DNA of 64,000 nucleotides from Cephalotus follicularis (Eukaryota > Streptophyta > Magnoliopsida > Oxalidales > Cephalotaceae): assembly GCA_001972305.1 (NCBI GenBank), contig BDDD01000078.1, positions 408,489-472,488 of the forward strand, in the 5' to 3' direction. Each line of letters opens with the position of its first letter. The first letter of the stretch is position 1. The translations under genes were made by a program, and so were the position numbers. Of this stretch, positions 1 through 64,000 are shown piece by piece. The notes under the pieces are model-generated. The model saw nothing but the letters and a program-made list of their open reading frames with translations. It did not search any database and was not told the DNA's origin.

Positions 1-72
1 CGTCGAGACTTTAGTGTGAACCGCTGACGCTTTAGACCTTTAACTGTCGATGATTTACCTAACGGTCGGTGG
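1..72. repeat. Phased GTCGAC-type motif array (E1 5' LTR)
   Basis: Core hexamers at 2 (gtcgag), 23 (gctgac), 46 (gtcgat) and 65 (gtcggt) are spaced 21, 23 and 19 bp. This is the visible end of the E-family array, better seen at 13596-13866. Confidence 0.6.
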
Positions 73-670
73 TTTGTTACCTTGTTCGATACAAAATGCA
101 ATGTTTTCAACCTCTTTTCCACCCCAAACACTTTTATTTTGAATTTGGTTCTATAGGAAGCTTCCCCAAGGCTATGTAACCTACATGAACCCTCTTTTAA
201 CACAATTGATTGTCAAATCAATCACCAAAATGAATTTCAATGATGTTTTCAATAAATGGTTAGGTTAGTTCAGTTGGGAAGTTTGGACACGAGCCTCCTA
301 GTTGGACCTTCTCTCCATTGTTTGATTAACGCTGATAGGGACCAAAAAATGGTTATGGAAATGGTATGGGAAGGATGGTTGTGGTATGGTTATTTTATTG
401 TTATGGATGGTTATGGAATGGTTTTGACGGATGGATACCATGTGATCCTCTATGGTTAGGTCCCTATCTTTTAAATGTTCTTATGGTTAGGAAATTATGG
501 TCTGATATTATTTGAGACTTGACGAGATAACCCATTCCTAATATTCATTTCATCATGAAGGTTAGGGATGTTAGACGACATGGTACGAGATTTGTATTGA
601 CCTATAGGAAGCCACTTTATGGGTGAACTTACGGGGGACACCGCATTGTGGATGCACCTATGGGAACACA

Positions 671-675
671 GTAAT
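671..675. repeat. Target-site duplication of element A (GTAAT), left copy
   Basis: GTAAT immediately precedes the TGTCACACC terminus at 676. The same five bases follow the ...TTATTACA terminus at 8183-8187. The perfect 5-bp duplication fixes both element ends. Confidence 0.93.
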
Positions 676-2059
676 TGTCACACCCCGCCACTCCATTCCA
701 TTAAGGACAAGCATATATGGTGATATCAGAAATAAATATAATATTCCAGCATTCCATTCAACAATTCAAATAATATAAGCGAAAGCATTCAAGAAGCCGG
801 AATATAAAATACAAGTCATCCGCACGTAGCCCATACTACGTGCAGGCACAATCCAACAATATCCTTATACATAAGGAAAGTACAACAACATCATGGGGTA
901 TGACCGTTCATTACAATACAGTACATCATAAAATAACAACCTTAAGATAGAAAGGCAACTCTCCAAAGCTCCAACAGCACCTCCCGTACGTCTTCTAATA
1001 CAAAACCAATCAGTGCATGCAATCAAGCAGAAAATAACCATACATGATATGCATACTCATATCTTCCAAAATATGTCATTACCCCTACCTCAAATTCTAT
1101 CCCGAGATCAATTGGGATTGACCTCTCTCTTTGAGTTTGCAAGCCTTTTCACCAACCAATCTTCCAAAATCCAGTAATTATTCATCTTTGCATGTTACAG
1201 AAGATGTATATATGTATAGTTAGTATACTCATACCTAGAGACAACTATAACAATAACTATAATCGAATCAGAGGCTTATCAACAATTCCTTAACTCCACT
1301 TTCACATTTAACCACTTCCATTACCATTTCTATCTCCAATTTTTAGCTTATTACTGGTGGTCATGTCTAATCAGTGGTTATAGGACAAATGTGAGTTTAT
1401 TTAACTATAACCTTAATACTAACAGAGCTTGGAGTTTACCAGGAAATCCAAGCTTCAAGTCCTCCTTGCACTCTAATCCTTCAACATGCATACACTTCCC
1501 AAAAGCTACTGTCCAGAGTTTCCTTCTCTCTCAAGTGTTTTCAACAGTCACACTCTAATCTAACAGCTGATATAAAGGCTTAGGAGCTTTAGAATTTGCC
1601 AGGTTCTCATTAACTCAGCCTTCACTTTTCTCTTTCTCACATGTTCACTCCTCTCTCATTTTTCTATCTTTTTCTCAATACTCTGTTATGATTGCAGGTC
1701 CGCAGAGTACATGCAAGGCACTCCTTTTGCATGTGAGGGCAGCTACTGGCTTCACATAACACCTGTACAAAATGCCTTGCCTCTGCCCTGTCTCATATGC
1801 ATGCGCAGACACCTGTTCTGTACCATTCCAATCGGCTGTCTTTAACAGGCAGTCGACTGTCACACCACGCATCATCCAGTCGACTGCTCGCCCTGTGGCA
1901 GTCGGTTGTCGATGGCTGCTTTTGGTTATTTTAGGTCCATTTGCTCAATTAAATTAACAACCATAATCCGTATAATAATTGGACAATTAATATCAATCAA
2001 AATGTATACTTTATTTAAAATTGGAGCAATATACATTAATTGAAATTGCGGTTATTACA
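676..2059 (-). repeat. Element A 3' LTR
   Basis: In element sense the LTR starts TGTAATAACCGCAA and ends GGGGTGTGACA. It carries the CAGTCGACTG palindrome cluster near its sense 5' end and a possible TATA element (CCTTTATATCAG in sense, near 1568-1580). It shares its termini and layout with the LTRs of B and C. Confidence 0.92.
1829..1908. repeat. CAGTCGACTG palindrome array, element A 3' LTR
   Basis: Four 10-mers start near 1829 (degenerate), 1850, 1877 and 1899. Two are perfect palindromes. Spacing is 21, 27 and 22 bp, the same pattern as in the A 5' LTR and the B 5' LTR. Confidence 0.85.
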
Positions 2060-2072
2060 TTCCCCCCTCCTT
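2060..2072 (-). other. Polypurine tract of element A
   Basis: In sense, AAGGAGGGGGGAA lies directly before the 3' LTR. This is the plus-strand primer site used in reverse transcription. The same tract occurs in B and C. Confidence 0.88.
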
Positions 2073-2100
2073 AAAGAAAATTCGTCCTCGAATTTAGCCC

Positions 2101-3727
2101 TTACATTCTGAACAAGTGGGGAAATGTCTTCCTCATTTCGTCCTAACGCTCCCACGTAGCTTCCTCTGCTCCGTGAAAATGCCATAGTACTTTTACCATA
2201 GGAATGGTCTCGTTCCTTAGTACCTTTTCCATTCGATCAACTATCCTCATCGGTATTTCTTCATAAGTCAATCTAGGGTTAATGAATCCAGGGTCGTAGC
2301 TCAAAATGTGAGATGGGTCGGGTATGTATTTCCGTAACATTGAAACATGAAATACGTTATGCACATCCGACAAACTAGGCAGTAGAGCAATTTGATATGC
2401 TACATCCCCCACTCTTTCAAGTATTTCATACGGCCCAATATACCTTGATGCCAACTTCCCTTTGAGTCCACAATGGTGTATCCCTGTCGAAGGCAAGATC
2501 TTCAAGAAAACATGATCCCCCTTCTCGAATTCTAGCTTCCTTCTCTTGCTATCGGCGTAACTCTTCTACCGACTTTGTGTAGCTAGCAGTCTCTTCTTGA
2601 TTATTTTCACTTTATCAGTGGTCTCTTGTACCAAGTCTGGTCCCAGCACTTTTCTCTCACCTACTTCATCCCAGCAAATAGGTGATCTGCACTATCTCCC
2701 ATATAAGGCTTCATAGGGATCCATTTCAATGCTGGTGTGAAAACTATTGTTGTAGGAGAACTCAATCAGTGCCAGATGATCCTCCCAACTCCCAGCAAAA
2801 TCAATCACGCAAGCCCGTAACATATCCTCCAGAGTCTGAATAGTACGCTTGGACTGCCCATCAGTCTGTGGGTGGAATGCAGTGCTAAAGTTCAAGGTTG
2901 TTCCCATTGCTGATTGGAACTTCTTCCAGAACCTTCAAGTGAATCTAGCATCTCGGTCACAAACAATACTGACCGGCACCCCATGCAATCTCACTATCTC
3001 CCGGATATACAATCGAGCAAGCTTCTCGATAGAATACGTCATATTCATCGGAAGGAAGTGAGTAGACTTAGTAAGTCTGTCCACTACTACCCACACTGCC
3101 TCATTCTGATTCTGTGACCTCGATAATCCTGACACGAAGTCCATGGTCACATGCTCCCATTTCCATTCAACCACTGGTAATGATTGTAGCAGTCCAGCAG
3201 GTTTCTGATGTTCATCTTTCACTCTCTGGTAGGTCAAACATCTTGCTACATATTCAGCAATCTCTCGTTTCATACCACTCCACCAGTAGTTCTCTTTTCA
3301 GGTCGTGCCACATCTTGGAACTTCCAGGGTGAACACTGTATTTTGGCTTGTGAGCTTGTTACAGTAGCTCATTCTTGATGCTCTCATCATCCAGAACACA
3401 TATCCTCCATCGGAACCTCAATTTGCCATCAGTATGAATGGAGAACTCATAATCAGTGTCTAGGTTCTCACGAATACTCCACAATTAAGAATCAATATAC
3501 TGAGCAGTCAGAATACACTCCAGAAGTTTCGATTGTTCTCTCAGACTTGCCACAATAACTCCGCGGGAAACCATGAACGGATTCCATCTCTGAAATTCCT
3601 CCAATAGCTTCCACTGTGAAGCCATTGCTCCAACAATCATTGCCTTGCGAGTAAGCGCATCAGCCACTACATTCGGCTTTCCCGGGTGGTATTGAATGTT
3701 GCAGTTGTAGTCATTAAAGAATTCCAC
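2101..3727 (-). pseudogene. Element A integrase and chromodomain-like tail (broken)
   Basis: This is the integrase part of pol, which would insert the cDNA into chromatin. The frame opens after a stop at the RNase H/integrase join and reads [16 protein letters not shown] at its start. The zinc-finger region has CLTYQ in place of CLTCQ, so one metal-binding Cys is lost. The core keeps VTMDFVSGL (first Asp), VCDRDARF (second Asp) and PQTDGQS, where the third acidic residue has become Lys (QSKRTIQ). In-frame stops follow DRDARFT, follow EALYGR and precede the C-terminus. The tail has VKVLWHFHGAEEATWER, typical of the chromodomain-like end of chromoviruses, and the family's natural end maps to the TAA at 2101-2103. 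Non-functional. Confidence 0.85.
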
Positions 3728-5209
3728 TCATCGCCTCTGTCTCATGTTGAGCTCCTTCTGGGAGAGCAAATACTTCAAACTCTTATGGTTAGTAAAGATC
3801 TCAAACTGAGGACGATAGAGGTAGTGCCTCCATTTCTGCAAAGCAAACACTATGGCTGCCAACTCAAGATCATGTACGGGATAATTTTCCTCGTACGACT
3901 TTAACTTCCTTGATGCATATGCAATCACCCTACGATGTTGCATAAGAATGCATCCCAATCCCTTCCCAGAAGCATCAGTGTAGATAGTGAAACCCTCATT
4001 ACCCTCCGGTAATGCCAATACTGGACCCGAAATCAACTGACTCTTCAACTCTTGGAAACTTGCCTCACAAGAATCATCCCACACAAAACTTGACTTCTTC
4101 TCAGTCAACTGTGTCAATGGTGCAGGATGTTTCAAAAATGCCTTGATGAACCTTCGGTAGTAGCCAGCCAATCCCAAGAAACTACGAACCTCCGTGATGT
4201 TCCTCGATTGGGGCCAATCAATAATACTCTCTATCTTCGAAGGATCCACCGACAATCCTTCACTCGACACAATGTGACCTAGGAAAGTCACATGATCCAG
4301 GCAAAATTCGCACTCGCTGAATTTGGCGTATAGCTGTTCTTTCCGTAGTGTTTGCAGTACAATTCTCAAGTGCTGCATGTGTTCCTCAATGCTCTTCGAA
4401 TAAATCAGGATGTCATCTAGGAATATAATGACAAACTGGTCAAGATAGGGTTGGAACACTTTGTTCATCAGACACATAAAGGCTGCAGGAGCAATTGTCA
4501 AACCAAACAGCAGTATCAGAAATTCGTAATGCCCATATCTGGTTCGAAATGTGGTCTTCTCCACATCACCCTCTCTGATCCTCAACTGATGATAACCTGT
4601 TCTTAGGTCAAGTTTGGAGAATACAGTTGAGCCTTGCAATTGGTCAAACAACTCCTCAATATGTTGTAGAGGATACTTGTTCTTCACCGTTACTTGATTT
4701 AGCAGCCTGTAGTCGATGCATAGCCGCATCGATCCATCCTTCTTTTTCACAAACAGGACCGCTACTCCCCAAGGTGATATACTCGGTCTGATGAAGCCTT
4801 TATCAAGGTAATCCTGTAATTGAACCTTCAACTCCTTCAGTTCGACAGGGGCCATTCGGTACGGTGCTCTGGATATAGGAGCAGTTCCAGGTAACAGCTC
4901 AATACTGAACTCTATATCCCTCTTCGGTGGCAACGAAGTGAGTTCATCTAGAAATACATCAAGAAATTCACATACAACAGGCACTTGTTCAATACTGGGC
5001 GTACCTTTCGTATGATCAATCACATATGCCAAATAGCCTTCGCATCCTTGCTTGAGATACTTCTGTGCTTGAGTATATGAAATGATCGGAGTAGAAACAT
5101 TCTTATCCCCGATAAACTTGCACTCAGTCCCATCATTAAGGTAAAATGTCATCATCTTGTTGTAGCAATCAACACGAGCATGATGAGCATACAGCCAATC
5201 CATCCCCAA
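3728..5209 (-). pseudogene. Element A RT-RNase H region (open but isolated)
   Basis: This reading frame of about 490 codons holds the end of the protease linker ([16 protein letters not shown]), then reverse transcriptase, then RNase H. RT motifs visible are [51 protein letters not shown] and the catalytic [11 protein letters not shown]. RNase H shows [11 protein letters not shown] and [10 protein letters not shown], where the usual TDHKS Asp is Asn. The frame stops after NMRQRR, where relatives read RRW, consistent with TGG to TGA. It is bounded upstream by a stop at 5225-5227, so it cannot be made as a normal gag-pol polyprotein without readthrough. It would copy element RNA to DNA in cytoplasmic particles. 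Confidence 0.9.
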
Positions 5210-5224
5210 GATTACCTCAAAATC

Positions 5225-6691
5225 CTAGATAGGTAACACTATCAAGTCAGTAGATAATTTGATTCCAGCTACCATGATCTCACAATCTTTCATAACAGTA
5301 TCAGATAGATGACGAGTACCCGTAGGAGTACTCACTTCCAATACATAAGGTAGTCTATAAGTAATACCATGCAAATTGTGAGCAAATTCGGATGCAATGA
5401 ATGAATGCGTCACACGAGGGTCAATCAATACATGAGCTAGTATGCCAATTATATAAATAGTACCTCCCACAACAGTAGTAGATTCTGGAACATCATCTTT
5501 AGATAAGGTGTAGACCCTACCTTTCACAATCCCTTTCTCGGTGTCCTTCCGCAGTTGAGCAGCCGCAACACTACCACTAGCACCCGCACTTCCTTGTTGG
5601 CCACGTGCTTGATCCCTCATCATTGGGCAATTATTCAGCATGTGATCTTGTGAACCACACATCAAGCACTTTCCCATCTTCTTCCAGCATTCAGTCTCAT
5701 CATGATTCTGATGACCGCAAAAAGGACATCCACCTGCATTCTGTTGACTATTTCGGCTAGGGGTCCTTGATCGTGAGTTTCTGCATCGAGAATCTCCTTG
5801 ACCTCTGTTGTCAAACTTTGTTGACTTAGCAGGATTATTAATTCCTTGTCCTTGTGACTGTGCGGCCCTTAATTGATTAGTACGAGACCGCTCTGCTCTT
5901 CTTTCATTCGCATCTGCCTCCAGAATCATCGCCCTCTCAGCAACATCTACAAAAGAGGTTAGCTGTAACATCAACAGTTTAGATCTGATGTCAGGTCGAA
6001 TGCCTTTTAGAAACCTTCGGATCATCCGTGATTCACCCTCGAGAAGATAAGGCGTGTGTCTTGCCAGTTCCACAAATCTGGTCTGGTACTGAGCTACCGT
6101 CATGTCTCATTGACGTAACTCCATCAGTTCTGTCTCCCATCGGTCACGATCTATCTGTGGCACATACGCCTCAAGAAACTCAAACTAGAATCTGTCCCAA
6201 GTCCGGTCAAGTCCACGAGATTCCCATTTTGCCTCAGTCCTTTCCCAACAATAAGTAGCCTCGCCCCATAAGCGGTATACAACAAAGTTGAGTTTCTGCT
6301 CATCGGTATATTCCAGGGCAGCAAATATTTTTCCCAAATCCCTAATCCACTACTCGGCCACAGTAGCATTCATCTCACCATTGAATGTCGAAGGATTTTG
6401 TCTCATGAACCACTCCAGGTCTCGGCCAAATCCACCAGTATGGCAAGCTTCAGGAGCCGGATGATAGGCCCGGTTAGCCTCGTACATTTGCCGAATCTGT
6501 TCCATGTTTGTCGTATTAGCTTGCATCTGTTGTTGAAAGAGGTCATCCATGCGGCCAAAGTGACTCCTCTCATCATGCGCTGGAGGTACATTCACTCCTT
6601 CGTTCACTGCCGGGTCATTTCCAGGTACCGGCGGTGCATTGACTCCTTCGTCGGCTCTACGCCTTCCTCTTCTACCTCTTCGTAGGTCCAT
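5225..6691 (-). pseudogene. Element A gag and protease (broken)
   Basis: The capsid gene starts MDLRRGRRGRRRADEG at 6691; an in-frame ATG also exists at 6721. The gag core has RQNPSTFNGE and, after a stop at VAE*WIRD, the usual EYTDEQKL region. Further stops interrupt WDRF*FEF and LRQ*DMTV. Two CCHC zinc knuckles follow, CPFCGHQNHDETEC and CLMCGSQDHMLNNC, for RNA binding. The aspartic protease site is degraded to IDPRVTHSF from the family's IDPGATHSF. The frame ends at TAG 5225-5227, exactly where element C has TGA. At least four lesions make it a pseudogene. Confidence 0.88.
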
Positions 6692-6780
6692 TCGGTTTCC
6701 TATATGGAATGACATATTCATTAGGAAACAATTTCACTTAGTTTCTGAGAAACTTATCCCAGCTAGCATATATGGAATAT

Positions 6781-6792
6781 GCTCTGATACCA
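6781..6792 (-). other. Primer-binding site of element A (tRNA-iMet)
   Basis: In sense, TGGTATCAGAGC starts four bases after the 5' LTR end. It complements the 3' end of plant initiator-Met tRNA, the usual primer for these elements. Confidence 0.93.
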
Positions 6793-6796
6793 TGCT

Positions 6797-8182
6797 TGTC
6801 ACACCCCGCCACTCGATTCCATTAAGGACAAGCATATATGGTGATATCAGAAATAAATATAATATTCCAGCATTCCATTCAACAATTCAAATAATATAAG
6901 CGGAAGCATTCAAGAAGCCGGAATATAAAATACAAGTCATTCGCACGCAGCCCATACTACGTGCAGGCAAAATCCAACAATATCCTTATACATAAGGAAA
7001 GTACAACAACATCACGGGGTATGACCGTTCATTACAATACAGTACATCATAAAATAACAACCTTAAGATAGAAAAGCAACTCTCCAAAGGCAGGTTGTAT
7101 ATTTCAATGCCTAATACAAAACCAATCAGTGCATGCAATCAAGCAGAAAATAACCATACATGATATGCATACTCATATCTTCCAGAATATGTCATTACCC
7201 CTACCTCAAATGCTATCCTGAGATCAATTGGGATTGATCTCTCTCTTTGAGTTTCGAAGCCTTTTCACCAACCAATCATCCAAAATCTAGTAATTATTTA
7301 TCTTTGCATGTCACAGAAGATGTATATATGTATAGTTAGTATACTCATACCTAGAGACAACTATAACAACAACTATAATCGAATCACAGGCTTATCAACA
7401 ATTCCTTAACTCCACTTTCACATTTAACCACTTCCATTACAATTTCTATCTCCAATTTTCAGCTTATTACTGGTGGTCATGTTTAATCAGTTGTTATAGG
7501 ACGAACGTGAGACTATTTAACTATAACCTTAATACTAACAGAGCTTGGAGCTTACCAGAAAATCCAAGCTTCAAGTCCTCCTTGCACTCTAATCCTTCAA
7601 CCTGCATACACTTGCCAACAGCTACTGTCCAGAGTTTCCTTCTCTCTTAAGTGTTTTCAACATTCACACTCTAATGTAACAGCTGATATAAAGGCTTAGG
7701 AGCTTTAGAATTTGCCAGATTCTCATTAACTCAGCCTTCCCTTTTCTCTTTCTCACATGTTCACTCCTCTCTCATTTTTCTATCTTTTTCTCACTACTCT
7801 GTTGTGATTGCAGGTTGCAGGTCTGCAGAGTACATGCAAGGCACTCCTTTTGCATGTGAGGGTAGCTGCTGGCTTCGCATAACACCTGTCCAACATGCCT
7901 TGCCTCTGCGCTATCTCATATGCATGTGCAGACACCTGTTCTGTACCTTTCCAGTCGACTATCTTTAACAGGCAGTCGACTGTCACACCACGCATCATCT
8001 AGTCGACTGCTCCCCCTGTGGCAGTCAGCTGTCGATGGCTGCTTTTGGTTATTTTAGGTCCGTTTGCTCAATTAAATTAACAACCATAATCCGTATAATA
8101 ATTGGACAATTAATATCAATTAAAATGTACACTTTATTTAAAATTGGAGCAATATACATTAATTGAAATTGCGGTTATTACA
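6797..8182 (-). repeat. Element A 5' LTR
   Basis: This is the partner of 676-2059, with the same termini. It differs in a short block near 7089-7110, which replaces the 'ctccaacagcacc' type sequence that the 3' LTR shares with C. It contains the palindrome cluster at 7952-8031. Confidence 0.92.
7952..8031. repeat. CAGTCGACTG palindrome array, element A 5' LTR
   Basis: 10-mers start at 7952 (cagtcgacta), 7973 (perfect), 8000 (tagtcgactg) and 8022 (cagtcagctg). Spacing is 21, 27 and 22 bp. Confidence 0.85.
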
Positions 8183-8921
8183 GTAATAAATAAAGTTGTA
8201 TGGACCTATAGGAACCCACTTTAGGGTTGAACCTACGAGGGACACCGTATTGTGGATGAACCTATGAGAACAGAGTATCAAATGTACTAATGGAAATATG
8301 GTTAAGGGCTAGAACCTATGGGAACTAGCATTATGGAATGGTTGATGTGGTCAGTGTTATATCGGCACTATTGACTACGACACAGAGACTGCATTGACGG
8401 TGGAGGTATTATCTTGGGCTGGAGTAGCAGAGTAGTACTTACACCTTATGGATTGTTTGTGCCCATCGATAGTTATGGATTGACTTATGGAGTGTCTGTA
8501 GACCTAGGGTGTATGGATGGTAATTTCTATTGTTAGGACTCGTTAAATATGCGTCTGATTAGGGATGGTTTATCTTCTAATGTTGTCCATAGTTGGCATT
8601 CATGCATATCACACGCCATGCATATATCTGTATATATCTACTCACTTCATTGTAAATAGTATTGCCTACATAGCCATGTTTGGCTGACCCATTTTCGAAA
8701 TGGGTATAACCTTTTAGGGACGAATGCTGAGGATACCTCGAAGTGAGTAGGATCGGACCTTCAAGGCAGGATTTGTAGTTGCAGTTCAGTTTCACTTTTA
8801 TCTACCCCGTATAAGACTTGTTGTATAAGACTTGTGTATTTTTGTTGTATTGAACTGCCAGCTTGTGGCAGTGCTGCAGACATATGTATTGAATGTTTTG
8901 TATAACTTTTGATTTATCTAT
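8183..8921 (+). repeat. E1 5' LTR, middle segment
   Basis: This resumes the E1 LTR after element A; 8183-8187 is the right TSD of A. It aligns by eye with about 14420-15130 of the second E LTR. Shared words include 'ggcattcatgcatat' and 'agcttgtggcagtgct' type sequence. No gene is seen. It ends at the left TSD (TCTAT, 8917-8921) of solo LTR S1. Confidence 0.78.
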
Positions 8922-9140
8922 TGATGAGCATAAAAATGTGTTGTTTTTAATGATATAATTGTTATATTTTTATGTTTGGAACATATTACTTGGGTTGTGT
9001 TTGATTGACTTTTAGGTAAGAAGCCAAAGAGATCAAAATACAGAAATATTACTTAAATTGGAGCAATTGAAGAAAAAGAGATCAACGATTGAAGAAATAG
9101 CAAAAATTATGCAGAAACAGAGCAGGACATCAACAGCTAA

Positions 9141-9551
9141 CCTTAAGCGTCGACACCTAACTCTTAAGCGCTGACGGGTTCAAGTTAAGCATCGACGCTT
9201 TGAAATCCATGATGAACATATGTGTAGAATTATGATTTTCGTCAACACCAAAGGTTTACACGTCAACATGCTTGGAATTAATTATATACACGTCAACGCC
9301 ATGATCAAGACGTCAATGCCATAATTGCAGAATTCAGACAGTGGCATAAACGTTGATGCTCAAACAGGAAGATGTCAACGCCATCCTGTTTCACAACTTA
9401 AGTGTCGACGCCTTGATTTTAGCGTCGACGCTTAACCCTCAAGTATGCCCCATAAACCTAAAATAACATCGACGCCTAGCGCATAAAGTACATCAAAGCG
9501 TCAACGCAAAACACCTAAATGTCGACGCCCAAGACTTAAGCGTCGACGCTC
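9141..9551. repeat. AGCGTCGACGCT palindrome array in S1, 15 sites
   Basis: Core hexamers (gtcgac and one- or two-base variants) start at 9149, 9170, 9191, 9241, 9262, 9292, 9312, 9352, 9374, 9404, 9424, 9468, 9500, 9521 and 9542. Most gaps are 20-22 or 30-32 bp; 40, 44 and 50 also occur. The array ends about 100 bp upstream of the TATA-like box, so it occupies U3. Confidence 0.88.
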
Positions 9552-9645
9552 ACAACGTATCAGGCGCAAGAATTAGAAAGTTTTTAAAGTTTTAGTATGA
9601 TTGTAATAGGTTAGATTTTATTCTATTTTTCCTAAAGTTTTAGAG

Positions 9646-9654
9646 TATAAAAAG
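9646..9654 (+). promoter_or_regulatory. Candidate TATA box of S1
   Basis: TATAAAAAG lies directly downstream of the palindrome array and would place transcription start near 9680. It is supported by sequence only. Confidence 0.5.
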
Positions 9655-10430
9655 AAAACGATAGGTCAGAAGTAAGGGTCTGATTTTGGAAAAAGAGCGG
9701 CTGCTAGATGAAGAATTCGTTGAAGATTATTGATGCTACCAACGTCATGTCCAGCTAAATATTTTAATCCCTGGATGTATATATATCAATTTCTAGTTTT
9801 CTGGTTTAATAGCATGTTTGTAAGACACTCTTTTCTTGTAGATGTATGTGGAACATTGATGAGAAGGAATTTTAATGATATAAAATATGTTTTGATGTTT
9901 TAGTGCTTGTAGCTCTATTTCATTCATAGCATGCGATGGTTCTTAATTTTCTATGTGAGTGCACCAAAGACATCCTTTAACCAATCAACCTTTTGAGAGT
10001 ATCAAAGTTTGACAGGATAGGCTGTCCCTAGTCTAAATCGTTATTTTCGGTGATATCTGTGATATTACAATTAAACCAGAATTTATGCCATGAATTTGAA
10101 TATATATATATATATATACATGCGGGGATTCAAACATCCATGGGACTGTTTTCTCATATTAATTTCATATTTATTTTGTCATATTGCATTAGATAATTAA
10201 ATCAATTTCTCATTACCATAGTTTAATTCAAATCAATTCTCTTTTCAAATTTCTCCATTTACATTGTTTGCTTAGTTAAATAATTTAGTATTTGTTATTT
10301 TTGTTTAAGTATTCTAAGTTCAATTTTATAGCATATCATCAAAACTCTTCGTGGGAAGGATCCCTACTTTCCATTTGCTAATTGTTAGATTAGGGTAATT
10401 TTGAATTGGTTCAACGACACGAACATCTAT

Positions 10431-10587: not shown

Positions 10588-10593
10588 GTTGAG

Positions 10594-35363: not shown

Positions 35364-35365
35364 AG

Positions 35366-53237: not shown

Positions 53238-53240
53238 TGA

Positions 53241-53717: not shown

Positions 53718-53732
53718 GATTACATCAAAATC

Positions 53733-55184
53733 TCAGATAGGTAACACAATTAGATCGGCCCATAACTGAACCCCAGCTATCGTGATCTCACAATTATCCA
53801 TTACAGAGTCAGATCGAAGATAAGTACCAGCTAGAGTACTCACTTCCAAAACATAAGGCAAATTAGAAGTAATGCCATGCAATTTGTGAGCAAATTCAGA
53901 TGCGATGAATGAATGTGTAGCACCAGGATCAATTAGTACATGAGCTAATATGTCAGATATCAAAATGGTACCTCCCACAACAGTAGTAGATTCTGGCACA
54001 TCATCTCTAGATAAGGTATAGACCCTACCTTTCATAATCCCCTTTCCGGTGTCTCTCCGCGGTTGAGTTGCCGCAACACTACCACTCGCGCCAGTACCAC
54101 CCTGTTGGCCACGTGCATGATCCCTCATCATCGGGCAACCACTCATCAAATGGTCATGTGAACCACACCTCAGGCATTTCCCCATCTTCTTCCAACACTT
54201 GGTCTCGTCATGGTTCTGGCGACCGCAAAAAGTACATCCTTCAGAGTTCTGTTGGCCACTTCGGTTAGGAGTTCTTGATCGGAATTTATTTCATTGAAAA
54301 CCTCCTTGATTCTTATTCCCAGACTTTGTAGAACCAGCAGGCTTGTTGCTACCTTGCCCTTGTGACTGTGCTGGTCTCGATTGAGTACGAGACCGTTCTA
54401 TCCTTCGGTCATTTGCATCAGACTCCAGAATCCTAGCTCTCTCAGAAATATCTACAAAAGATGTTAGCTGTAACAGTAACTACTTAGATCGGATATCTGG
54501 ACGAAGGCCTTTCAAGAACCTTCGGATCTTTCAGGATTCACCCTCTACGAGATAGGGCGTGTGCCGAGCTAACTCCACAAAACGGGTCTGGTACTAAGCT
54601 ACCGTCATATCACCTTGACGTAGCTCCATCAATTCGGTCTCTCTCCTATCTCGCTCCATCTGTGGAACATAAGCTGCAGAGAACTCTGATTCAAATCGGT
54701 CCCAAGTTCTATCCAGATTTCGAGATTCCCACTTTGCTTCAACCATTTCCCACCAATGAGTAGCTTCACCCCATAGGTGGTACACAGGAAAGGTAATCTT
54801 TTGTTCATCGGTACATCTCAAGGCTTCAAATATCCTCTCCATATCTCTCATCCATCGCTCAGCTACATTGGCATCCAATTCTCCTAGGAATGTAGGAGGA
54901 TTCTACCTCATGAACCGCTCCAGGTCTCTGCCAAAATTGCCAACATGATTGACTTCTGGAACACACTGTCGGGCTTGAGTAGCCTCATACATCTGTCTCA
55001 TCTGTTCCATGTGTGCAGCATTGGCTTGGATCTGCTGTTGGAAAAGATCAGCCATGCGCTCAAAATTACTGCTCTCATCGTGTACTGGAGGGACATTTAC
55101 TACCGGGGCATTTTCGTGAATAGGCGGGGCATTGATCTCCTCGTCAGCTCTACGCCTTCCACGTCTACCTCTCCTTCGATCCAT
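53733..55184 (-). pseudogene. Element C gag and protease, several stops
   Basis: It starts MDRRRGRRGRRRADEE at 55184; in-frame upstream ATGs exist. A coiled region, FERMADLFQQQIQANAAHME, is followed by the capsid core. That core includes LERFMR, a stop, NPPTFLGE, then RCTDEQKITFPVYHLWGEAT and HWWEMVEAKWES. Stops follow at MTVA*YQTRF, EGES*KIRRF, RSK*LLLQL and GGFQ*NKF. Zinc knuckles are CTFCGRQNHDETKC and CLRCGSHDHLMSGC. The protease is intact at its site, LIDPGATHSFIASEF. The frame ends at TGA 53733-53735, in the same codon as the stop in element A. Confidence 0.87.
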
Positions 55185-55272
55185 TTTGTTTCCTATATGG
55201 AATGACAAAATCATTAGGAAACAACTCAACAACTTCCGAGAAACTTATCCCAGCTTAGCATATATGGAATAT

Positions 55273-55284
55273 GCTCTGATACCA
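55273..55284 (-). other. Primer-binding site of element C
   Basis: In sense, TGGTATCAGAGC is a perfect initiator-Met match four bases after the 5' LTR. Confidence 0.93.
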
Positions 55285-56612
55285 TGCTTGTCACACCCCG
55301 TTATTTCAGTTCACGTATAATGGACAAGCATATGTGGTGATATCCGAAATAAGCATAAAATAATATTTCAGCACAATTCATAAATAAAAATTTGCGGAAG
55401 CAGTTATTAAGCCGAAATATAACATAAGCCGTCCGCACGCATCCCATACTACGTGCGGATAAAACCAACAATTATCCTTACATAAGGAAATACAACATAA
55501 CGAGGTATGAACCGTTCAATTTCAATAACAATACGACATCATAATCACAACCTTAAATTAACCAAAAGAAGCTCTCCAAGCTTCAACAGCAGCCCCCAAA
55601 TGTCCTTGCTTAATCTGAAAGTGTAGGGGTTAGCCGTTGTCCTCACTTGGCTAAGTAGAATGATAATGTATGATAAGGAATATATGAATGCAACATGTGT
55701 GACAGTTTATATCAAAATAACATTTAAATGAGCCAATATATGAGCAATCTTGCCGAATGGCCATAAACAGTACATATGCAATAATACCGCACAAGGGTAC
55801 AATCAATTCATCCATCAATTGGGTGTCACATGTCGCTAACTCCTAGCACCAATTGTGCACACCTATCTATCACCCTATGCTTCGAGAATGAAAGATCAGG
55901 TAACAATTACTACCGGCGTTGGCGGGTAGTTTAACAATAAAATCTGCAATGCAGACACAGTCTAGCCAACCCCTGGCACCCAGGATCACATCCATAGTCA
56001 GTGACATCCTCCATCACTCGGCTACGGAAAGCGTAGACAATAAATTGAATCAATTCAGTTCAATAATATTACATATATCAGCAATATGCAATATAAAAGT
56101 TGTTTTCTGTAAAAACATATAACAATCATTTATCGTACATCTCTTCGGAGGAAAACGATCTCCATTCAATAGTGGTTTCCAGTTTGGGAAACAAAACAGT
56201 AGGTACCTCTCATGTAGGAGGAAAATCAGTAGTTCATTTGGCAATAATCATTTATTTGAAAACGATAGTTAATATCATAAATTGGGTACATAGCCCATAG
56301 TTGGTTTCAATCATTGAAATACAAGTGGTAGAGGTGTTATATGACCCCAAAACAGTTTATAATAATATGACAGTAGCATATTCAGTAACAATATCACAAT
56401 CAATAGCTCTTGCAATAATAGTTTTCAATTGAAAATGATGTTTAAACCATGAATTGTGCATATAGCACATAGTTCGTTCGATCGTTGCAGTATGAGTAGT
56501 AACGATGTTAAATAACATCAAACAGTATATACTATATGGTTGTAGCATATACAATTCAATAACAGTACCAACAGTAACAATTCAATCAATATTATACAAT
56601 TTCTGCCCAAAA

Positions 56613-56724
56613 CAGTCGGATGCCAACAAAATTAGCCGACTGTTGGGTTGGGTAGTCGACTGCTTGGGCTTGGCAGTCGACTGAAAGGGTTGAGTAGTAG
56701 ACTGTAATTATTGACAGTCGACTA
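56613..56724. repeat. CAGTCGACTG array, C 5' LTR distal, 6 sites
   Basis: 10-mers start at 56613, 56633, 56653, 56674, 56695 and 56715. Gaps are 20, 20, 21, 21 and 20 bp, the same as in the 3' LTR, with a few point changes (tagtagactg, cagtcggatg). Confidence 0.92.
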
Positions 56725-57489
56725 CCTCTGCCCAGAAAATGCGGGCAGTGGCATGTCATGCAATGCAATTTCGATTTTCAATCAATTTCAATACATGTAA
56801 CATGTAGAAAATAGACATACACAATATGCATACTATATCTTCCATAACATATCATTACCCCTACCTCAAATCGCTATCCCAAGATCAATTGAGTTTGATC
56901 TTTCTCTTTGAATTCCAAGTCACTTTCACCAACAATTCTTTAAATTCAGCAATATCAATCTATGTAAGCATGTTTATAGACTCATGCATTAGTAACAGTA
57001 GGTTTCAGTAGTTACTTGTAAAAATTACAATTCCAATAGTAGCTTAATCATCAAGTGTTCTAAGTCTTAACTCCCATTTCCAATTTCCTTTTGAATTTCA
57101 TGTCAAGGATCATTAAATCTCGGATTCATGAACTTTTAACTTGTTTGACAGTAGGTATATACATAATTAGGAATCATAAAGCATATATCCTATCACTAAC
57201 AAAAATTAAAATCCATTCAAGAGGTTATAATCACTAATTCCACTTGCTCCAATTCACTACTTTCCATTTCAATTCTAAGAATTGATGATTCTAATCCATT
57301 AACAAAAGATATTCTATATTCTCCTAGTCATTTATCATCATAATTACAGAGAATTTAGGATTGAGAACTTACCAAGTGACCAAAGCTTCAAAGGTTCCTT
57401 CTTTGAGTTCTCCAAATCATACCAATGCAAGCTTCAATAATCCCTCTCTTCACTTAGTGTTTTTCTAACACTCATAAACCATTCAACAT

Positions 57490-57499
57490 CTGATATAAG
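57490..57499 (-). promoter_or_regulatory. Candidate TATA box of the C 5' LTR
   Basis: CTTATATCAG in sense sits at the position of CTTTATATCAG in A and B, about 250 bp downstream of the proximal array. Confidence 0.42.
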
Positions 57500-57748
57500 T
57501 CTCAAAGAGTTATGAATTCGTCAGATTCCTACCCTACTCACATGCACTCACACTTCACTCTTTCTTTTCCATCACATGCATCCCTCCCTTCACTTTCTCT
57601 CATTAAATATCAATTTACAGGTTGTTAGTCTACAGAGAACATGCAAACATTCCCCTTTTGCATGTTCTGGCAGGTGGTGGACGCATGTGACCATACCTAC
57701 CTGTCATTCTTGTCTCTGCACATGCCAGGAGTTTGTCCTGGGCAATTC

Positions 57749-57828
57749 CAGTTGACTGGCTATAGTGGGCAGTCGACTGCCTTCATCACGTGGCAAACAA
57801 TCGACTGTTGCCCTGTGACAGTCGGCTG
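57749..57828. repeat. CAGTCGACTG array, C 5' LTR proximal, 4 sites
   Basis: 10-mers start at 57749 (cagttgactg), 57770 (perfect), 57798 (caatcgactg) and 57819 (cagtcggctg). Gaps are 21, 28 and 21 bp. Confidence 0.9.
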
Positions 57829-58122
57829 TTTGGGCTGGTTTAGGGTTTTCAAATCTTTGATACTTCTCCAATTGCACATCCATTCAACCCAAGAAATTAC
57901 CAATCATAGAAATTAGTATAATTGGACAAATAACTCAATTAAAATGTATATTTTATTTCAAAATTGGATCAATATACATTAATTGAATTGCGGTTATTAC
58001 ATTCTAATACTCAATGCCTTAGAAGAAAACTCAAAGTTTTATTTACTATACAATATTTACACTTCTATGTACATCTCGTACATTCACTATACATTTCTAC
58101 ATAAGATTTCTTCATTGCTATT

Positions 58123-58576: not shown

Positions 58577-59800
58577 AACTGGTAACGCCCCCGATCCGAG
58601 ATCACTAAATACTCATAGCGAGCTATGAGGATTCGGTGCGTTATGGGATGGTAAACCTAAATCATTTAACAATCTCACTTGTTATTCACACCTTTCATTG
58701 AATTCTTATAATCTAAAAATAAACTCACTTTTCTAAACACCAAGTTTACTAACTGTCATACACTTATCGTTACAACCAACCATCTTGGTGGTTAGATTCT
58801 ATATGCTTATACATAACATGTCATAGAAATATTTACACAGTGGAAAATATTGTCTCGTTACATCATAAAAACAGTTTATGCATAGCAAAATTTATTCTAA
58901 AAATCGTCTTACAACTTCCTTCTAAAGCTTGGCATTCCATGTTCAACTATTTCCTGGAAAATTATTAAATCATAACACAACAATGAAAGGAATGAGCTCA
59001 AATAGCCCAGTAAGAATTTTTACAGTGAATACTTCATCAAAATCCTTTTTCTGATAAATTTTCATAAAACTAGAACATTTCAAATCACTGAGGGGCCTTA
59101 AGAAGCCCAACTAAATCATTGCTTCACCGGGGATATGTGCACTCTCCGATTATTATCCTTACATCACATGTATGTCCTAGAGCACTCTATGATCTTAAAA
59201 TTAACCTCTTTGGATCTCACTATCCAATAGTTGTTCATCTTAGTTCAACAACTTTTCGTAACTTATTAAAAAATTTCTCAATACTTTGAGTAAACAGCAT
59301 AAAAGCAATATTCTCGACAGGATCGCACAGTAACTTCAAAACTGATATTTCATATGAAAATAATCATTTCAAGAGAAAACATAAAACAGTAAAGTTATAG
59401 CATACATCTCAAAGATTTAAAAAATGATACAGTTCATAATTCTTGGATGAGAAACGAAGCTGAAGTAAATTTTCAAAGTTGCAGGTACGGCATAAAAGAA
59501 TAAAAAGAGCAGTAATTTCGAACAGAGTTTTACGTCTAGAAATCAACTGAATTTTGAAATACATAAAACATCAAAGCTATAGAGGACATCTTCAGGTTTC
59601 TATAATAGTCAACGAATTTAAATTTAATCAAGAAATACGAGAGATGTCATTAAAACAATTTGCTGCATAATAGCAAAAATAAACAGAGGAATATATTTAA
59701 TACTTTATAATGTAAGAGTGGGATTCCTTACTTTGAATTATGTTCCTTTTCTCTTCCTGTGTCAATCTCAGCAAAACTAACTATTCTAGATTTCTTTTCT

Positions 59801-59810
59801 GGATATATAG
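59801..59810 (-). promoter_or_regulatory. Candidate TATA box of the J LTR
   Basis: In sense, CTATATATCC lies about 265 bp downstream of the array. The S2 LTR has a similar box. Confidence 0.42.
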
Positions 59811-60073
59811 CAACTGGTGTATGCCTTCACTGGATGTGTCATCAAGAGCCATACCTATAGCATGACACTTAGCATTCCCTCCTTTTAATTTTGTGGCACC
59901 TAACATTCCACACTTCTAATTGGCGACATTTGGATTTAATCTCCTTAACTAGCTAACACCTTATAGTATTTCACGGTTATTAACTCGTCTAGCTAGACAC
60001 ATGCCCTCCAAGTTTATCCTAACTTACAGACAAAGAGACAAAATTGAATTTTGGACTGTTCTTGCACGACAAA

Positions 60074-60230
60074 GCGCTGACGCTTTTGCGTAAAGCATCG
60101 TCGGTTGTCCACAAAGCGCTGCCACTTTACTTTGAGCTGTCGATGCTTTAAGAGTGCTTTGCGTTGGCGCTTTACGAACTCAGTCAATGCCTAAGCTAAA
60201 CTATCGATGCTTTAAGCTAGACAGTCACCG
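60074..60230. repeat. AGCGTCGACGCT-type array in the J LTR, 8 sites
   Basis: Core hexamers start at 60076, 60097, 60118, 60139, 60163, 60183, 60203 and 60224. Gaps are 21, 21, 21, 24, 20, 20 and 21 bp. The hexamers are degenerate (gctgac, atcgtc, gctgcc, gtcgat, gttggc, gtcaat, atcgat, gtcacc), yet the spacing holds. Confidence 0.85.
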
Positions 60231-60331
60231 CTTTACAAAACAAAACACCAAAATAACATGCCAAACAAGATATACAACAAGTAATATTCGATAACTATAA
60301 CCCAACAATACAACGAAAATTCCGGTCATCA

Positions 60332-61310
60332 CCCCAAAAAACTGGAGTTGAGACTGGGCTGGCATATTGAAGGTTGCAACCTTCCTATAACAATCCACAT
60401 GGGCATAGTGTGCCGCTAACCAATCCATTCCTATGATTACATCCAGTTTACCCATCAGTAACACTATCAAATCAAACAACAAAACACGGTCAGTGATCTC
60501 TAGAGCATAAGACCTACACACCCATTCATAGTAAACAGGGTCTCCTACTAGGTGCTAACCTCCATTATAAAAGATAAGGGCTCAGTTCCACCTTAATATG
60601 GCATAGAAAATGCGTAGCAATGTATATGTAAGATGAACCTGGATCTATAAGGGTATGTGCCATAGGTTGAGATATAGAAATGGTACCTCCAATAACTGAG
60701 GTTGATCCCACTGTGGCTCGTTCATCCATGGGATAGGCTTTACCCTGTACGGTAGGTGCCGATCCCATAAGCTGTTTACCACGTTCTCCCCACAGTGTAG
60801 AAGGCAAACTGGGGCTAGTATAACCCTGGTATAGCGATGCAAAACCATGACTCTGCTATGAACCTCCCTAAGATTGAGCTAAATTCTGTCTCGGCTGATT
60901 CCCTTAACCATACCTGCAACGAGGGCACTCTGCTGCTATATGATCCATAGCTCCACAAACTAGGCATTTAATGTCCTTCCACTAGCAATAATATGAAGCA
61001 TGATTAGTGCATTGAAAAAACATGCACGGATCAAAAGGGACCTGACTACTATCACCGAGAAGCCTAGAGTGACGTCCCCATGATGAAAATCTCCCTCGGT
61101 TTCTTCACCGAGAGCTACATCCACGTCTCCTCTGCTGAGAACCTCGAAACTGCCCTCCTAGTCTTGAAAGACCATATGGACTACCAATGGTCTGAGGAGA
61201 TCCACCCTGACCAGGGCTGCTGGTACTTCTAGTCTTCAGGGATTTATTACTACTCCCAAAACTCCTCCCCGATTGCCAATCTAATGAAGCATGCCTACTA
61301 CCACCAGTCT
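60332..61310 (-). pseudogene. E3: family-E gag C-terminus and protease remnant
   Basis: A minus-strand fragment of family E. A zinc knuckle lies near 60915-60960 (CLVCGAMDHIAAEC). The protease region reads MDERATVGSTSVIGGTISIS, AHTLIDPGSSYIYIATHF (active site kept), then after a break CRSYALEITDRVLLFDLIVL and KLDVIIGMDWLAAHYAHVDC. It matches E1 12180-12600. Both ends are cut by other elements: the J LTR at 60331 and the G LTR at 61311. Confidence 0.82.
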
Positions 61311-61453
61311 TGTAATATCACGTTTTGTTGCCTATATGTTTGACGTCTCATATGTTATGTTCAGTTTATGTTACGTGTTATCGGAATGTTTGAAAGTGTT
61401 TTTGAAAACTCTTTTTGTTCTTTTATTTCGTTTTGCATTTCTTGGGCGTCAAA

Positions 61454-61579
61454 GCGTTGACGCCATTGTTTTAGCATCAACGCTTTGACACATATGTAAA
61501 GCGCTTAAGCCTATGCCATTAGCGTCGATGCTTTAGTCAGAAAAGCATAAGTGCTGACGCCTTTGAACTATCGTTGACG
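61454..61579. repeat. AGCGTTGACGC-type array, G LTR first cluster
   Basis: Core hexamers start at 61456, 61476, 61524, 61553 and 61573. Gaps are 20, 48, 29 and 20 bp. Confidence 0.78.
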
Positions 61580-62174
61580 CTTATGTCATCTTCCTTATTT
61601 GTTTTGGACGATGGCTTAGTTTTGGTAATGGGATTCTTTGCCGTATTCGTTTATCTGATTTTCCTTTTGTGTGGTTGAATTTTTCTGCATGAAAGGTAAG
61701 TTTTTACTCTACACGTTTTACCATCAATCACACACGTTTTCTCTCTTTTAAACGATATCACCTACACATTTTAATAAAACCGAATCAACCATTCTCCTAC
61801 ACCGTTTTCATCGTTTCCTCATACTGTTTTGCACATCAGTTTGAAGGTATGCTCCGAAATGATTTTGTTATCACCCTATTTTACCGTTTTGTTGTTTATA
61901 AATCACTAGCTTAAACAAAACATCAAGATAATCGATGTAACATGTTTAAAAGCATGTAGTTTAAGAAACCATGTTTTCAAAGTTGTCACTGATATATATG
62001 TAACCTGTAAATAATTTAATATGCATTCAATTCGTTATAGTAGTGTTTTTAAACCATAAATGACACTACTGTTTTACTGCTTCATGTTGAGAAACTGGTT
62101 TTGTACATGTTTTACAATCCAAAACGATACCCCAGTGCATAAAGAAAACTATTTTTGGTCTTGCATGTGTTTAA

Positions 62175-62423
62175 ACGTCAACAGTTTTTTTGTTTTGTTG
62201 ACGATTAGGGCTTAATCGTCAACGCTTGGGTTATGTGTTATAATGTAAGCTTCAACGCTTTCTTCCTATATTGTCAAGCATACCGTCGACGCTTAGCTAT
62301 GTGTTATGATGTTACCATCGATGGTTTGGTTGTGTTTTTCAATGCTTTGGTTCGACTCTTTGACCAGCGTTTGGAAATAATATTTTCTTTAAGGCGTCGA
62401 CGCTTTTGCCCAGTACGTCGACA
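62175..62423. repeat. AGCGTCGACGC-type array, G LTR second cluster
   Basis: Core hexamers lie near 62177, 62197, 62218, 62251, 62273, 62285, 62317, 62351, 62396 and 62417. Spacing is less regular, with 20-22 bp pairs and 32-34 bp gaps. Confidence 0.72.
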
Positions 62424-63813
62424 TTTTCCTCTGTTGTTTGTGTTTGTACGTCCATTATGTATCTGTTTGTGATATTTTTGGATTTGGGTTGTATAATTAG
62501 GACTTCCAAGGTGTCTGTTGTGATTCTATAGGTGCCTTTTGTTCCATTCTAGTATTTGTTTGGATTCCAATAGCTAAGGTACGAATATTTGTCATTTTTG
62601 GCTATTCTTGAATTTTTTTCAAATGGATTCCATATTGCTTTTGTTACGGACCTTTTGTATTTGATACTGCTTTTTGGTTTATGAAAATGTACGGATTTTT
62701 TTATCAGATGTTTGTTTTTGTTTTTATAAAATCTGTTATATTACTGAAGTTTAATATTACCGATTTTGTAAATTGAGCATGAATTTCACCATCGAAAGTA
62801 TGTTAACTTTCAGATACATATATGATTATGATTTCAGATATGCTCAGAAATTGTTTTGAAAATATGTTTATGTTTTAAATTGTTTTTATAATAAAACAAT
62901 GTTTTGGCATAATAGCATATAGAGAAAAACTTACCTATGAGGTCTTATAGGCTTGTTCTTTGGCACGGAGGACATGACACCTACCGTGGTGGTGTGATCA
63001 GTCTACGGCGTCTCTCTATATATATATCATGGGGGTAGGGTATGGATCCATCTGAGGCGTTTGAGTCAACTCTAGTTATTATCAGATTCATATTCTGGGA
63101 ATTGATTGCATAGTGTCGTACACGTCTTTCCGTCAAAGCATGTGGGCCTCGCCAACCCCATGCACATATATATATGTACATCAGATCTCTGTATGGAATT
63201 ATGAAATCGGATACAGTTATGAATTATGAATTTATGTTATTTGAAAAATTATGATACTTTGCTTTTCAAAAAGTTATGAAGATTTTATAACTATTTTATT
63301 TAAATATTCTGCTTTAAGTTATAAAGAATATTTAATTGTACTATTTTCTGATTTTAAAGTTTGTATATTTGTTTATCTTTTAAATGTCTCTTTACTGTTT
63401 TATATTTCCTTATCCATATTGAGGTGTGCTCAGCCACGTTTTTGTTTCCATGAGGCAGGTTATCAGGAGCATGGGGGAAATGTCTGATGACACATAACCA
63501 CGTATATCTGAGGATCATCTAGGAGATTGGTCCATCTGTGTTTTCATTAGTGTTGTGGTCGTGTTTAGGCCAGTCCTTTGAACAATATTAGGTTTTCGGA
63601 TTATGATTTCAGATTATGGTTTTGATTTTTGATTTTTGGTTTAAGTTAAAGCTTGCAGACTATGATTTTCATATTCAGATTTTGAGATTAGATTATGTTT
63701 TGACCATCACATTTATGAATAAAAAAATGTGTTTTATGTAATGTTTTATTTGTGTTTAGTTCTATATTATGACTTGTAAGTGCTCCCAATCCGTCCGGGG
63801 GTGTTACAGATTA

Positions 63814-63825
63814 TGGTACCAGAGA
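63814..63825 (+). other. Primer-binding site of element G
   Basis: TGGTACCAGAGA is the initiator-Met type with one change, five bases after the LTR. Confidence 0.85.
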
Positions 63826-63981
63826 ATAGGTTTTGTTCCGTAGAAGACCTAACTATGTTTGACCTGTGAGATTGGGTAGACTTTGGGTTAGGGCTTTTCC
63901 ATTATGGTCATTTTGATATGTCTTTTGTTTTGGTTTTCTGATTCTTTTTGTCTTTATCTTGTCCTTGTTTCTGTTGCGTAG

Positions 63982-64000
63982 ATGGTACGAACAAGGAACA
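63982..64000 (+). CDS. Start of element G gag, partial
   Basis: An ATG at 63982, about 155 bp after the PBS, starts a frame reading MVRTRN before the window ends. A basic N-terminus is usual for gag of this group. The call rests on position after LTR and PBS. Confidence 0.5.

Follow-up and report, generated by a model that had tools for sequence, protein, structure and literature searches.

Two-turn arrays of TCGA-centred palindromes in gypsy and copia long terminal repeats of Cephalotus follicularis, candidate binding strips for a dimeric protein

Clusters of short palindromes are already known from the long terminal repeats (LTRs) of Sireviruses, whose palindromic repeated motifs (RMs) mainly occupy the upper LTR half, ahead of the TATA box, and number up to 14 in a single 3' LTR (Bousios et al., 2010, PMC2829016). 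That paper reports the RMs as specific to Sireviruses and lacking in classic copia elements. A CGG-CCG core was present in 12 of 13 elements, and the motifs differ by element around a common core, examples being CGGTCGACCG in Vitis and ACAATCGATTGT in Tnd-1. The maize Sirevirus palindromes (consensus CACCGGACNNNGTCCGGTG) are reported to be small-RNA hotspots that cluster in the cis-regulatory part of the LTR (Bousios et al., 2016, as cited in PMC10760457 and PMC5311732). Here, arrays of palindromes centred on TCGA are described from a stretch of 64,000 nucleotides of Cephalotus follicularis (assembly GCA_001972305.1, contig BDDD01000078.1, positions 408,489 to 472,488, forward strand; hereafter the window), which is plant DNA built of LTR retrotransposons nested in one another. 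Like the RMs, these arrays are clusters of dyad-symmetric motifs in the LTR, and, judged from the same excerpts, the Vitis RM shares their GTCGAC core and the Tnd-1 RM their TCGA centre. Unlike the RMs, they lack the CGG-CCG signature and carry the arms CAG, GCG and ACA around TCGA, and they occur in Ty3/gypsy elements and in a copia element without the Sirevirus polypurine tract (PPT).

The octamer of the Sirevirus PPT, AGGGGGAG, of which Sireviruses have several copies ahead of the 3' LTR, has no plus-strand copy in the window, and the copia element found there (element H) has one AGTGGGAG at 40762; a change of the third position from G to T is among the commonest PPT changes of classic copia elements according to the available text (PMC2829016). 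Element H thus fails the PPT test for a Sirevirus, though a Ty1/copia reverse transcriptase (RVT_2) is present. The arrays add to the RMs a spacing law of two helix turns, a polarity of the sites and an exchange of site classes, and no spacing rule is given in the accessible part of PMC2829016. The maize palindromes have been read through secondary structure and small interfering RNAs in the excerpts at hand, whereas the present arrays are known from DNA sequence alone. A literature search that reached few subscription journals and did not reach the 2016 maize paper turned up neither gypsy elements with arrays of this kind nor such a spacing rule.

Two further systems are similar in design. 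The gypsy insulator of Drosophila is an array of many degenerate copies of one Su(Hw) binding site within a retrotransposon, separated by unconserved spacers; unlike the present sites, the Su(Hw) sites are not palindromic, lie outside the LTR and have a known factor. In the VANDAL elements of Arabidopsis, VANC motifs form clusters of short motifs with family-specific dialects in non-coding element DNA, but these elements are DNA transposons that encode their own factor. A plant factor that uses the GTCGAC core is FD, a bZIP protein reported to bind this motif in the Arabidopsis FT promoter (PMC13360168); this is a single site in a gene promoter, and nothing in the available text ties FD to the LTRs considered here.

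The clusters of GTCGAC palindromes, pointed out in an earlier note on this window, are real, extend over the whole genome and are more pronounced than the note had put it. The hexamer occurs 42 times in the window, compared with a mean of 5.4 and a maximum of 12 in 100 dinucleotide shuffles. With at most one mismatch, the class-1 word CAGTCGACTG is found 33 times (shuffle mean 1.1, maximum 5; about 30-fold) and the class-2 word GCGTCGACGC 28 times (mean 0.2, maximum 2; about 140-fold). Across the assembly (1,577,397,061 bases, or 1.58 Gb, in 9746 contigs), the two words occur 197,377 and 73,186 times, whereas the same words read backwards occur 939 and 121 times. A sample of 25 stretches of 10 kb was chosen without regard to content, 20 at base 100001 and five at base 50001 of the chosen contigs, and comprises 223,494 readable of 250,000 bases (one stretch, L113, with a GC content of 0.02, is seemingly mostly N). 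In this sample, the 16 palindromic tetramers were compared for complementary 3-bp arms with 200 permutations of the right arms: TCGA had 55 such occurrences (mean 15.0, maximum 26), and besides it only ATAT and TATA went over their permutation maxima. The arms around TCGA were CAG (15), GCG (14), ACA (7), TCA (4), ACG (3) and rarer ones. The two classes named in the earlier note are confirmed in both the window and the genome, and a third has to be added: sites with ACA arms, with the 18-bp form AAAGACATCGATGTCTTT, build arrays of the same spacing at L102:3293-3684 and 6625-7016 and in L111, L112 and L117. The word ACATCGATGT occurs exactly only once in the window, at 42261 in the H LTR, with two one-mismatch copies in copia coding DNA. 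Scans of viral contigs for pairs of sites gave 5 and 88 stretches.

Weight matrices of classes 1 and 2, which were trained on window sites and are independent only in the sample, and a class-3 matrix trained on the sample itself were used to call sites. The 140 calls in the window comprise 118 sites in arrays, 20 isolated sites and two sites in one loose pair, and arrays hold 3 to 14 sites. Class-1 and class-2 calls are never mixed in one window array. Of 102 pairs of exact or one-mismatch neighbours within 60 bp in window and sample, 96 are of the same class; by matrix calls in the sample this holds for 171 of 201 pairs, many of the mixed ones joining class 2 with class 3.

The distances between sites follow a narrow rule. 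The window arrays, counted without redundancy, give 87 pair distances of at most 75 bp, of which 24 fall at 19-23 bp (null mean 8.2, maximum 18 in 5000 random placements), and their Rayleigh R for a 10.5-bp period is 0.54 (null maximum 0.35). Collapsing like gap lists left 34 arrays with 220 adjacent gaps in the sample; sites of one array, sampled LTR pairs (L102, L123) and family copies are still not independent of each other. Compared with random placement, which here and in the window assumes uniform positions at least 10 bp apart, gaps of 19-23 bp (120 vs 28.1), 41-44 bp (18 vs 9.6) and 48-54 bp (21 vs 11.9) are in excess, and those of 10-18 bp (4 vs 63.2), 24-27 bp (3 vs 18.7), 35-40 bp (2 vs 17.6) and 45-47 bp (1 vs 6.3) are avoided. 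The sample R at 10.5 bp is 0.67 (null maximum 0.25); 10.25 and 10.5 bp were the best of six periods tried, and the 10.5-bp rhythm stands on the gaps of 25-60 bp alone (mean cosine 0.37 vs -0.10; 0 of 5000). Genome-wide, 48,687 exact class-1 pairs lie 10-40 bp apart, compared with 166 for the control word. The 69 plus-strand class-1 pairs among 100 matches listed, all from contig C1 and several of them copies of one family, have 57 gaps at 19-22 bp, 12 at 27-28 bp and none elsewhere, namely 19 (3), 20 (12), 21 (40), 22 (2), 27 (4) and 28 (8) bp. The 19-23 bp spacing proposed in the earlier note thus exceeds random placement in both window and sample, and the outcomes that the note had named as refuting its claim did not occur in the tests that were run.

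Fifteen LTRs or LTR fragments were placed in the window. Paired LTRs delimit the related gypsy elements A (675-8188, minus strand), B (15729-22131, plus) and C (47835-58004, minus) and the copia element H (33448-43190, plus); the LTRs of S1, J, F, G, E, E-prime and H2 were placed through homology, primer-binding sites or flanking pol remnants. With their arrays and the gaps between sites (in bp), they are as follows.

675-2065, minus strand: left LTR of Ty3/gypsy element A, 94% identical to its partner; class-1 array 1829-1908 with gaps 21, 27, 22.
6796-8188, minus strand: right LTR of A; class-1 array 7952-8031 with gaps 21, 27, 22; primer-binding site 6781-6792.
15729-16983, plus strand: left LTR of B; class-1 array 15877-15955 with gaps 21, 27, 21.
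20752-22131, plus strand: right LTR of B; class-1 array 20900-20951, one unit fewer than in the left copy.
47835-50567, minus strand: left LTR of C, 97.4% identical to its partner; class-1 arrays 49175-49286 (20, 20, 21, 21, 20) and 50312-50391 (21, 28, 21).
55284-58004, minus strand: right LTR of C; class-1 arrays 56613-56724 and 57749-57828.
30702-33447, plus strand: LTR S1, start not fixed; class-1 array 31851-32036 (22, 20, 22, 21, 28, 21, 42).
61400-63813, plus strand: LTR J, start not fixed; class-2 sites 62174-62419 and, as a less sure member of the LTR, 61445-61581; primer-binding site at 63814.
8189-10593, continuing in 1-674, plus strand: LTR F, split by element A; class-2 array 9146-9550, with a TATAAAA word about 98 bp downstream.
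13300-15728, plus strand: G, an LTR with the 5' internal part that follows, its homology to F running from 13908 onward; class-2 array 13593-13869 just upstream of the homologous part and presumably in the LTR.
23360-25700, minus strand: LTR E, ends not fixed; class-2 array 25437-25658 (21, 53, 21, 51, 43, 21).
58577-60300, minus strand: LTR E-prime, whose part 58810-59758 is homologous to 23596-25129 in E; weak class-2 array 60073-60171.
33448-35363, plus strand: left LTR of copia H, 5'-truncated; class-2 array 34277-34679; primer-binding site at 35366.
40772-43190, plus strand: right LTR of copia H; class-2 array 42081-42523; PPT at 40762.
43332-44999, minus strand: LTR H2, 70-75% identical to the H LTR; class-2 array 43422-43712 (31, 52, 22, 30, 22, 29, 23, 48, 22), with a TATATAA word 115 bp downstream.

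All 15 carry an array, as the earlier note had claimed for nearly every LTR, but with different certainty. For A, B, C and H, eight LTRs in all, an LTR pair encloses the array. The arrays of H2 and F are contained in, or framed by, blocks with homology to another LTR; those of S1, J, G, E and E-prime only adjoin LTR-homologous DNA, the far LTR end not being fixed, and the array of E-prime is weak. Location in the LTR is thus shown in the window, while in the sample it is deduced from non-overlap with gag-pol: gag-pol matches make up 18% of the sample and are overlapped by none of the 36 arrays in it, although 29 of these arrays lie in loci with such matches. Only five of the 36 lie in a direct repeat within their own 10 kb, compared with a coverage of 7.9%. 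Six window arrays, those of F, J, S1, E and H2 and the second one of C, have their nearest TATA-like word 98-323 bp downstream; in the sampled locus L108 the distance is 26 bp. In L117, a 12-site, mainly class-3 array (1794-2113) begins about 90 bp downstream of where a J-like LTR match stops, so that some of the arrays may sit in an internal region or in another element rather than in an LTR.

The claim that unrelated elements share the arrays stands in part: class 2 is common to gypsy and copia LTRs (F, G, E, E-prime, J, H and H2), whereas class 1 occurs in the window only in related gypsy elements (A, B, C and S1). B contains RVT_1, RNase H and an integrase zinc-binding domain; A and C match its pol, and S1, which lies 3' of a gypsy integrase match (29644-30639) 47% identical to B's integrase, matches B's integrase only. 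A copia reverse transcriptase, in RVT_2 pieces, was found for H only. The sole chromodomain match, in C, is below the cut-off (20.3 of 25.1 bits); A, B and C may be Tekay-like chromoviruses. Among the best 120 of 7984 scored candidates, the close named proteins are plant gypsy integrases, and the nearest relatives reach 70% identity (67% in Dionaea).

The first arrays of A, B and C go back to a single array in a common ancestor, so these three elements are not independent families. Identity in site columns compared with other columns is 0.93 vs 0.69 for A and C, 0.95 vs 0.68 for B and C, and 0.88 vs 0.79 for A and B, the site values being inflated because site columns were picked by consensus match. 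No alignment of arrays was seen between the other families of the window at the comparison settings used. Within arrays, the spacing persists and the spacers do not, as the earlier note had stated: for the nine bases between sites 21 bp apart, consecutive units are 0.31 identical (n = 9) and different loci 0.29 (n = 1524), and any two spacers of one array 0.35 (n = 69). Homologous spacers between units, the mark of a tandem repeat or minisatellite, are absent from most arrays.

Related LTRs can carry different classes at the same positions, which is new. The sampled locus L108 (contig C7) belongs to the A/B/C group, with 84% identity at the pol end, 86% at the LTR start (to C and B) and 75% to C at the LTR end. 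Its two arrays stand between the homologous blocks that also flank the two C arrays, but both are class 2 where both C arrays are class 1. Of the five sites in its first array, one (588) has a weak class-1 score and another (654) is class 1 in one half and class 2 in the other. In a MAFFT alignment of the second array, which may have followed the shared core, the first two sites keep the same register within one base and their arms differ. L119 matches both L108 arrays and also their spacers (identity in spacer columns 0.78 and 0.69), and its sites are of class 2 in each. As the DNA between the L108 arrays is still homologous to A and C (63-71%), an exchange of the whole LTR control region (U3) is no simple explanation of the class difference. 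Elements may also have exchanged array modules alone: the L108 arrays have short or weak matches to arrays of L103, L106, L112, L117, L121, L125 and of E in the window. The longer matches of the second array, however, lie in the sites (identity 0.77 in L103 and 0.83 in L117) and not in the spacer columns (0.57 and 0.57), which are not above alignments with random DNA (0.72, standard deviation 0.14), and the short matches hold only 10 and 17 spacer columns, too few to decide. S1 and J form a second case with a weaker alignment: their LTRs are 62% identical downstream (62569-63851 in J) and carry class 1 and class 2, respectively, upstream.

The sites are often better in one half, and the better half tends to lie on the same side throughout an array, which is likewise new. 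Read in LTR sense over the window LTRs and L108, the 3' half is better in 38 and the 5' half in 17 of 76 class-2 sites (P 0.006), with a 3' bias in eight of 10 arrays, G being opposite and E-prime tied; for class 1 the numbers are 8 and 6. Since this bias was first noticed while looking, it was tested separately on the sample without L108. Agreement within arrays gave statistics of 40, 52 and 47 for classes 1, 2 and 3 (9, 18 and 7 arrays) compared with 16.9, 29.7 and 16.3 under sign flips, none of 5000 being as extreme in each case, although shared descent of units and doubly counted LTR pairs could add to the statistic.

The reading that we favour, at a probability of roughly 0.57, is that the arrays are cooperative binding strips for a dimeric, probably host protein in the U3 of the LTR. 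On this reading, the arrays would be cis-regulatory, and each TCGA-centred pseudo-palindrome of 12 to 18 bp would be the site of a protein dimer. The dimers would sit side by side at intervals of some two helix turns (19-22 bp; steps of 27-34 bp would also be allowed), and the strip would be bound cooperatively. Because lineages keep arrays and spacing while spacers drift, the arrays would probably raise or protect LTR transcription. The protein is probably encoded by the host and would belong to a family that shares the TCGA centre and differs in the arms; an element lineage could then switch from one family member to another, in whichever direction, and its arrays would change class together. 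The dimer-site array that the earlier note had proposed is consistent with the dyad symmetry of the sites, their conserved spacing across unconserved spacers and their presence in gypsy and copia LTRs. For BED zinc-finger proteins (with TCGA sites of the DREF or BEAF type) as the binder, a literature search on the combination yielded no paper, and they are a lead only.

Several observations weigh against this reading. The longer step is not in excess, neither at 27-32 bp in the window (9 vs 9.8), where the earlier note had expected it, nor at 28-34 bp in the sample (20 vs 26.7), and the 27-34 bp step is not a whole number of helix turns (27-28 bp being 2.6-2.7 turns). With 27-29 bp at about 2.7 turns, the single helical face suggested earlier fits only the steps of 21, 42 and about 52 bp, and a strict one-face model for all steps is weakened; runs such as 21-29-21-29-21 in L123 and 21-28-21 in C suggest a repeating unit of about 50 bp. 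The equal conservation of half-sites that a simple symmetric homodimer would produce is not seen, polarity being constant within arrays. No TATA-like word lies within 500 bp downstream of the arrays of A, B and both H LTRs or of the first C array, and such words were counted without a control. The arrays are not universal, as five loci with gypsy pol (L109, L114, L116, L118, L120) and one copia locus (L115) have none; the five have 12-57% gypsy gag-pol coverage, and the sites seem to be missing from some gypsy families. Parts of some arrays (49195-49266, 9496-9549 and 34639-34681) score as period-21 tandem repeats. Finally, complementarity between neighbouring sites is slightly above that of order-shuffled sites in classes 1 and 2 (P 0.019, 0.004 and 0.116 in the three classes), and in all three a site pairs better with its neighbour than with itself (9.91 vs 9.54, 10.63 vs 9.55 and 11.62 vs 10.67 of 16).

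The same sequence evidence would also suit a platform for anti-silencing, insulation or a boundary, in which the bound factor shields the LTR from methylation or partitions chromatin and could come in trans from another element family. We consider this unlikely. It recalls the Su(Hw) array and the VANC clusters, where one short motif recurs between drifting spacers, and the central CpG of class-2 sites has decayed as a methylated CpG would: C>T (10) and G>A (12) make up 22 of 62 mismatches in 46 window sites, above any other position, as expected of methylated old copies. Such decay after insertion is, however, expected for any CpG in silenced elements, and no trans factor was found; A, B and C have no open reading frame of at least 250 amino acids besides gag-pol (shorter frames were not looked at).

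Alternatively, the arrays could act as hairpins of RNA or single-stranded DNA, each palindrome pairing with its neighbour across a short loop at 21 bp, either with the structure as the function or as a target of small-RNA silencing, a role that has been proposed for the maize Sirevirus palindromes. The complementarity of neighbours given above favours this, as does the small-RNA excess at Sirevirus palindrome clusters in the passages that cite it (PMC10760457; PMC5311732). Sense-RNA folds of five of six window stretches were also stabler than dinucleotide shuffles (z -8.4, -3.6, -3.3, -4.8 and -2.3; the sixth -0.2), but such stability is expected anyway from two nearby palindromes. Constant polarity of weak and strong halves means that Watson-Crick pairing would improve if partners alternated, and a flipped partner is indeed better in 45 vs 19, 28 vs 18 and 12 vs 3 pairs; with G-U pairs allowed, this advantage is gone or slightly reversed (34/31, 23/26, 8/11). 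Mismatches of the G-U and A-C kinds are about equal in the sense strand (69 vs 73), so there is no sign of selection on an RNA strand, and neither strand-specific wobble nor alternating polarity of neighbours was found. Hairpins also need neither a 10.5-bp rhythm out to 52 bp nor the gap in spacing at 24-27 bp. As wobble favours no strand, polarity is constant and the helical spacing is not explained by pairing, duplex DNA is preferred as the recognised form, and hairpins as the main function are weakened to an improbable alternative.

Under neutral dynamics, palindromes would have spread by slippage or gene conversion in a fast-evolving U3, leaving the 21-bp step as a relic of old tandem duplication. 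The period-21 repeats, the best of which is the second array of C with 76% matches, point this way, as does the right LTR of B, which lost a unit present in the left one through a deletion running from site to site. Since spacers are unrelated while their lengths and the sites persist, the same spacing law holds in three classes, in the 25-contig sample and in gypsy and copia elements of the window, and related LTRs carry different classes at the same places, we give this explanation only a slim chance. Chance or base composition is disfavoured by the shuffle excess and the excess of arm symmetry at TCGA, a plain satellite or minisatellite by the unrelated spacers of consecutive units (with the three tandem-repeat exceptions), and one ancestral array for all families is true only for the first arrays of A, B and C.

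If the binding-strip reading is right, a large share of the LTR retrotransposons of this genome would be controlled through a single type of protein strip, whose sites, numbering in the hundreds of thousands, would offer a simple assay for a general plant retrotransposon regulator. The different classes at orthologous positions would then be natural experiments on how elements change regulators, and the Sirevirus palindromes would no longer be peculiar to one copia genus but an instance of a broader rule that also covers Ty3/gypsy elements. A wider and distinctly more tentative idea is that of a shared regulatory code for many LTR families, in which two-turn TCGA docking strips are served by a diversified family of trans-acting proteins and the dialects (CAG, GCG and ACA arms) change in concert as a trace of cis-trans co-evolution between the elements and proteins that activate, protect or restrain them. 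The Sirevirus motifs might then be one dialect of this plant-wide system.

Some other features of the window are of minor interest. The E LTR region contains a 44-bp tandem repeat of 6.4 copies without palindromes (24413-24695). Element A is flanked by an 82-bp near-repeat, 88% identical (592-673 and 8196-8277), a length well beyond that of normal target-site duplications. Gypsy gag-protease remnants that are related to each other and have pol absent or shortened lie at 11366-12856, 22319-22843 and 60333-61306, and are possibly a non-autonomous group or nested truncations. Remnants of a CACTA-type transposase (Transposase_21, Transpos_assoc, DUF4218 and DUF4216) occupy 26687-29877 and run into the gypsy integrase match at 29644.

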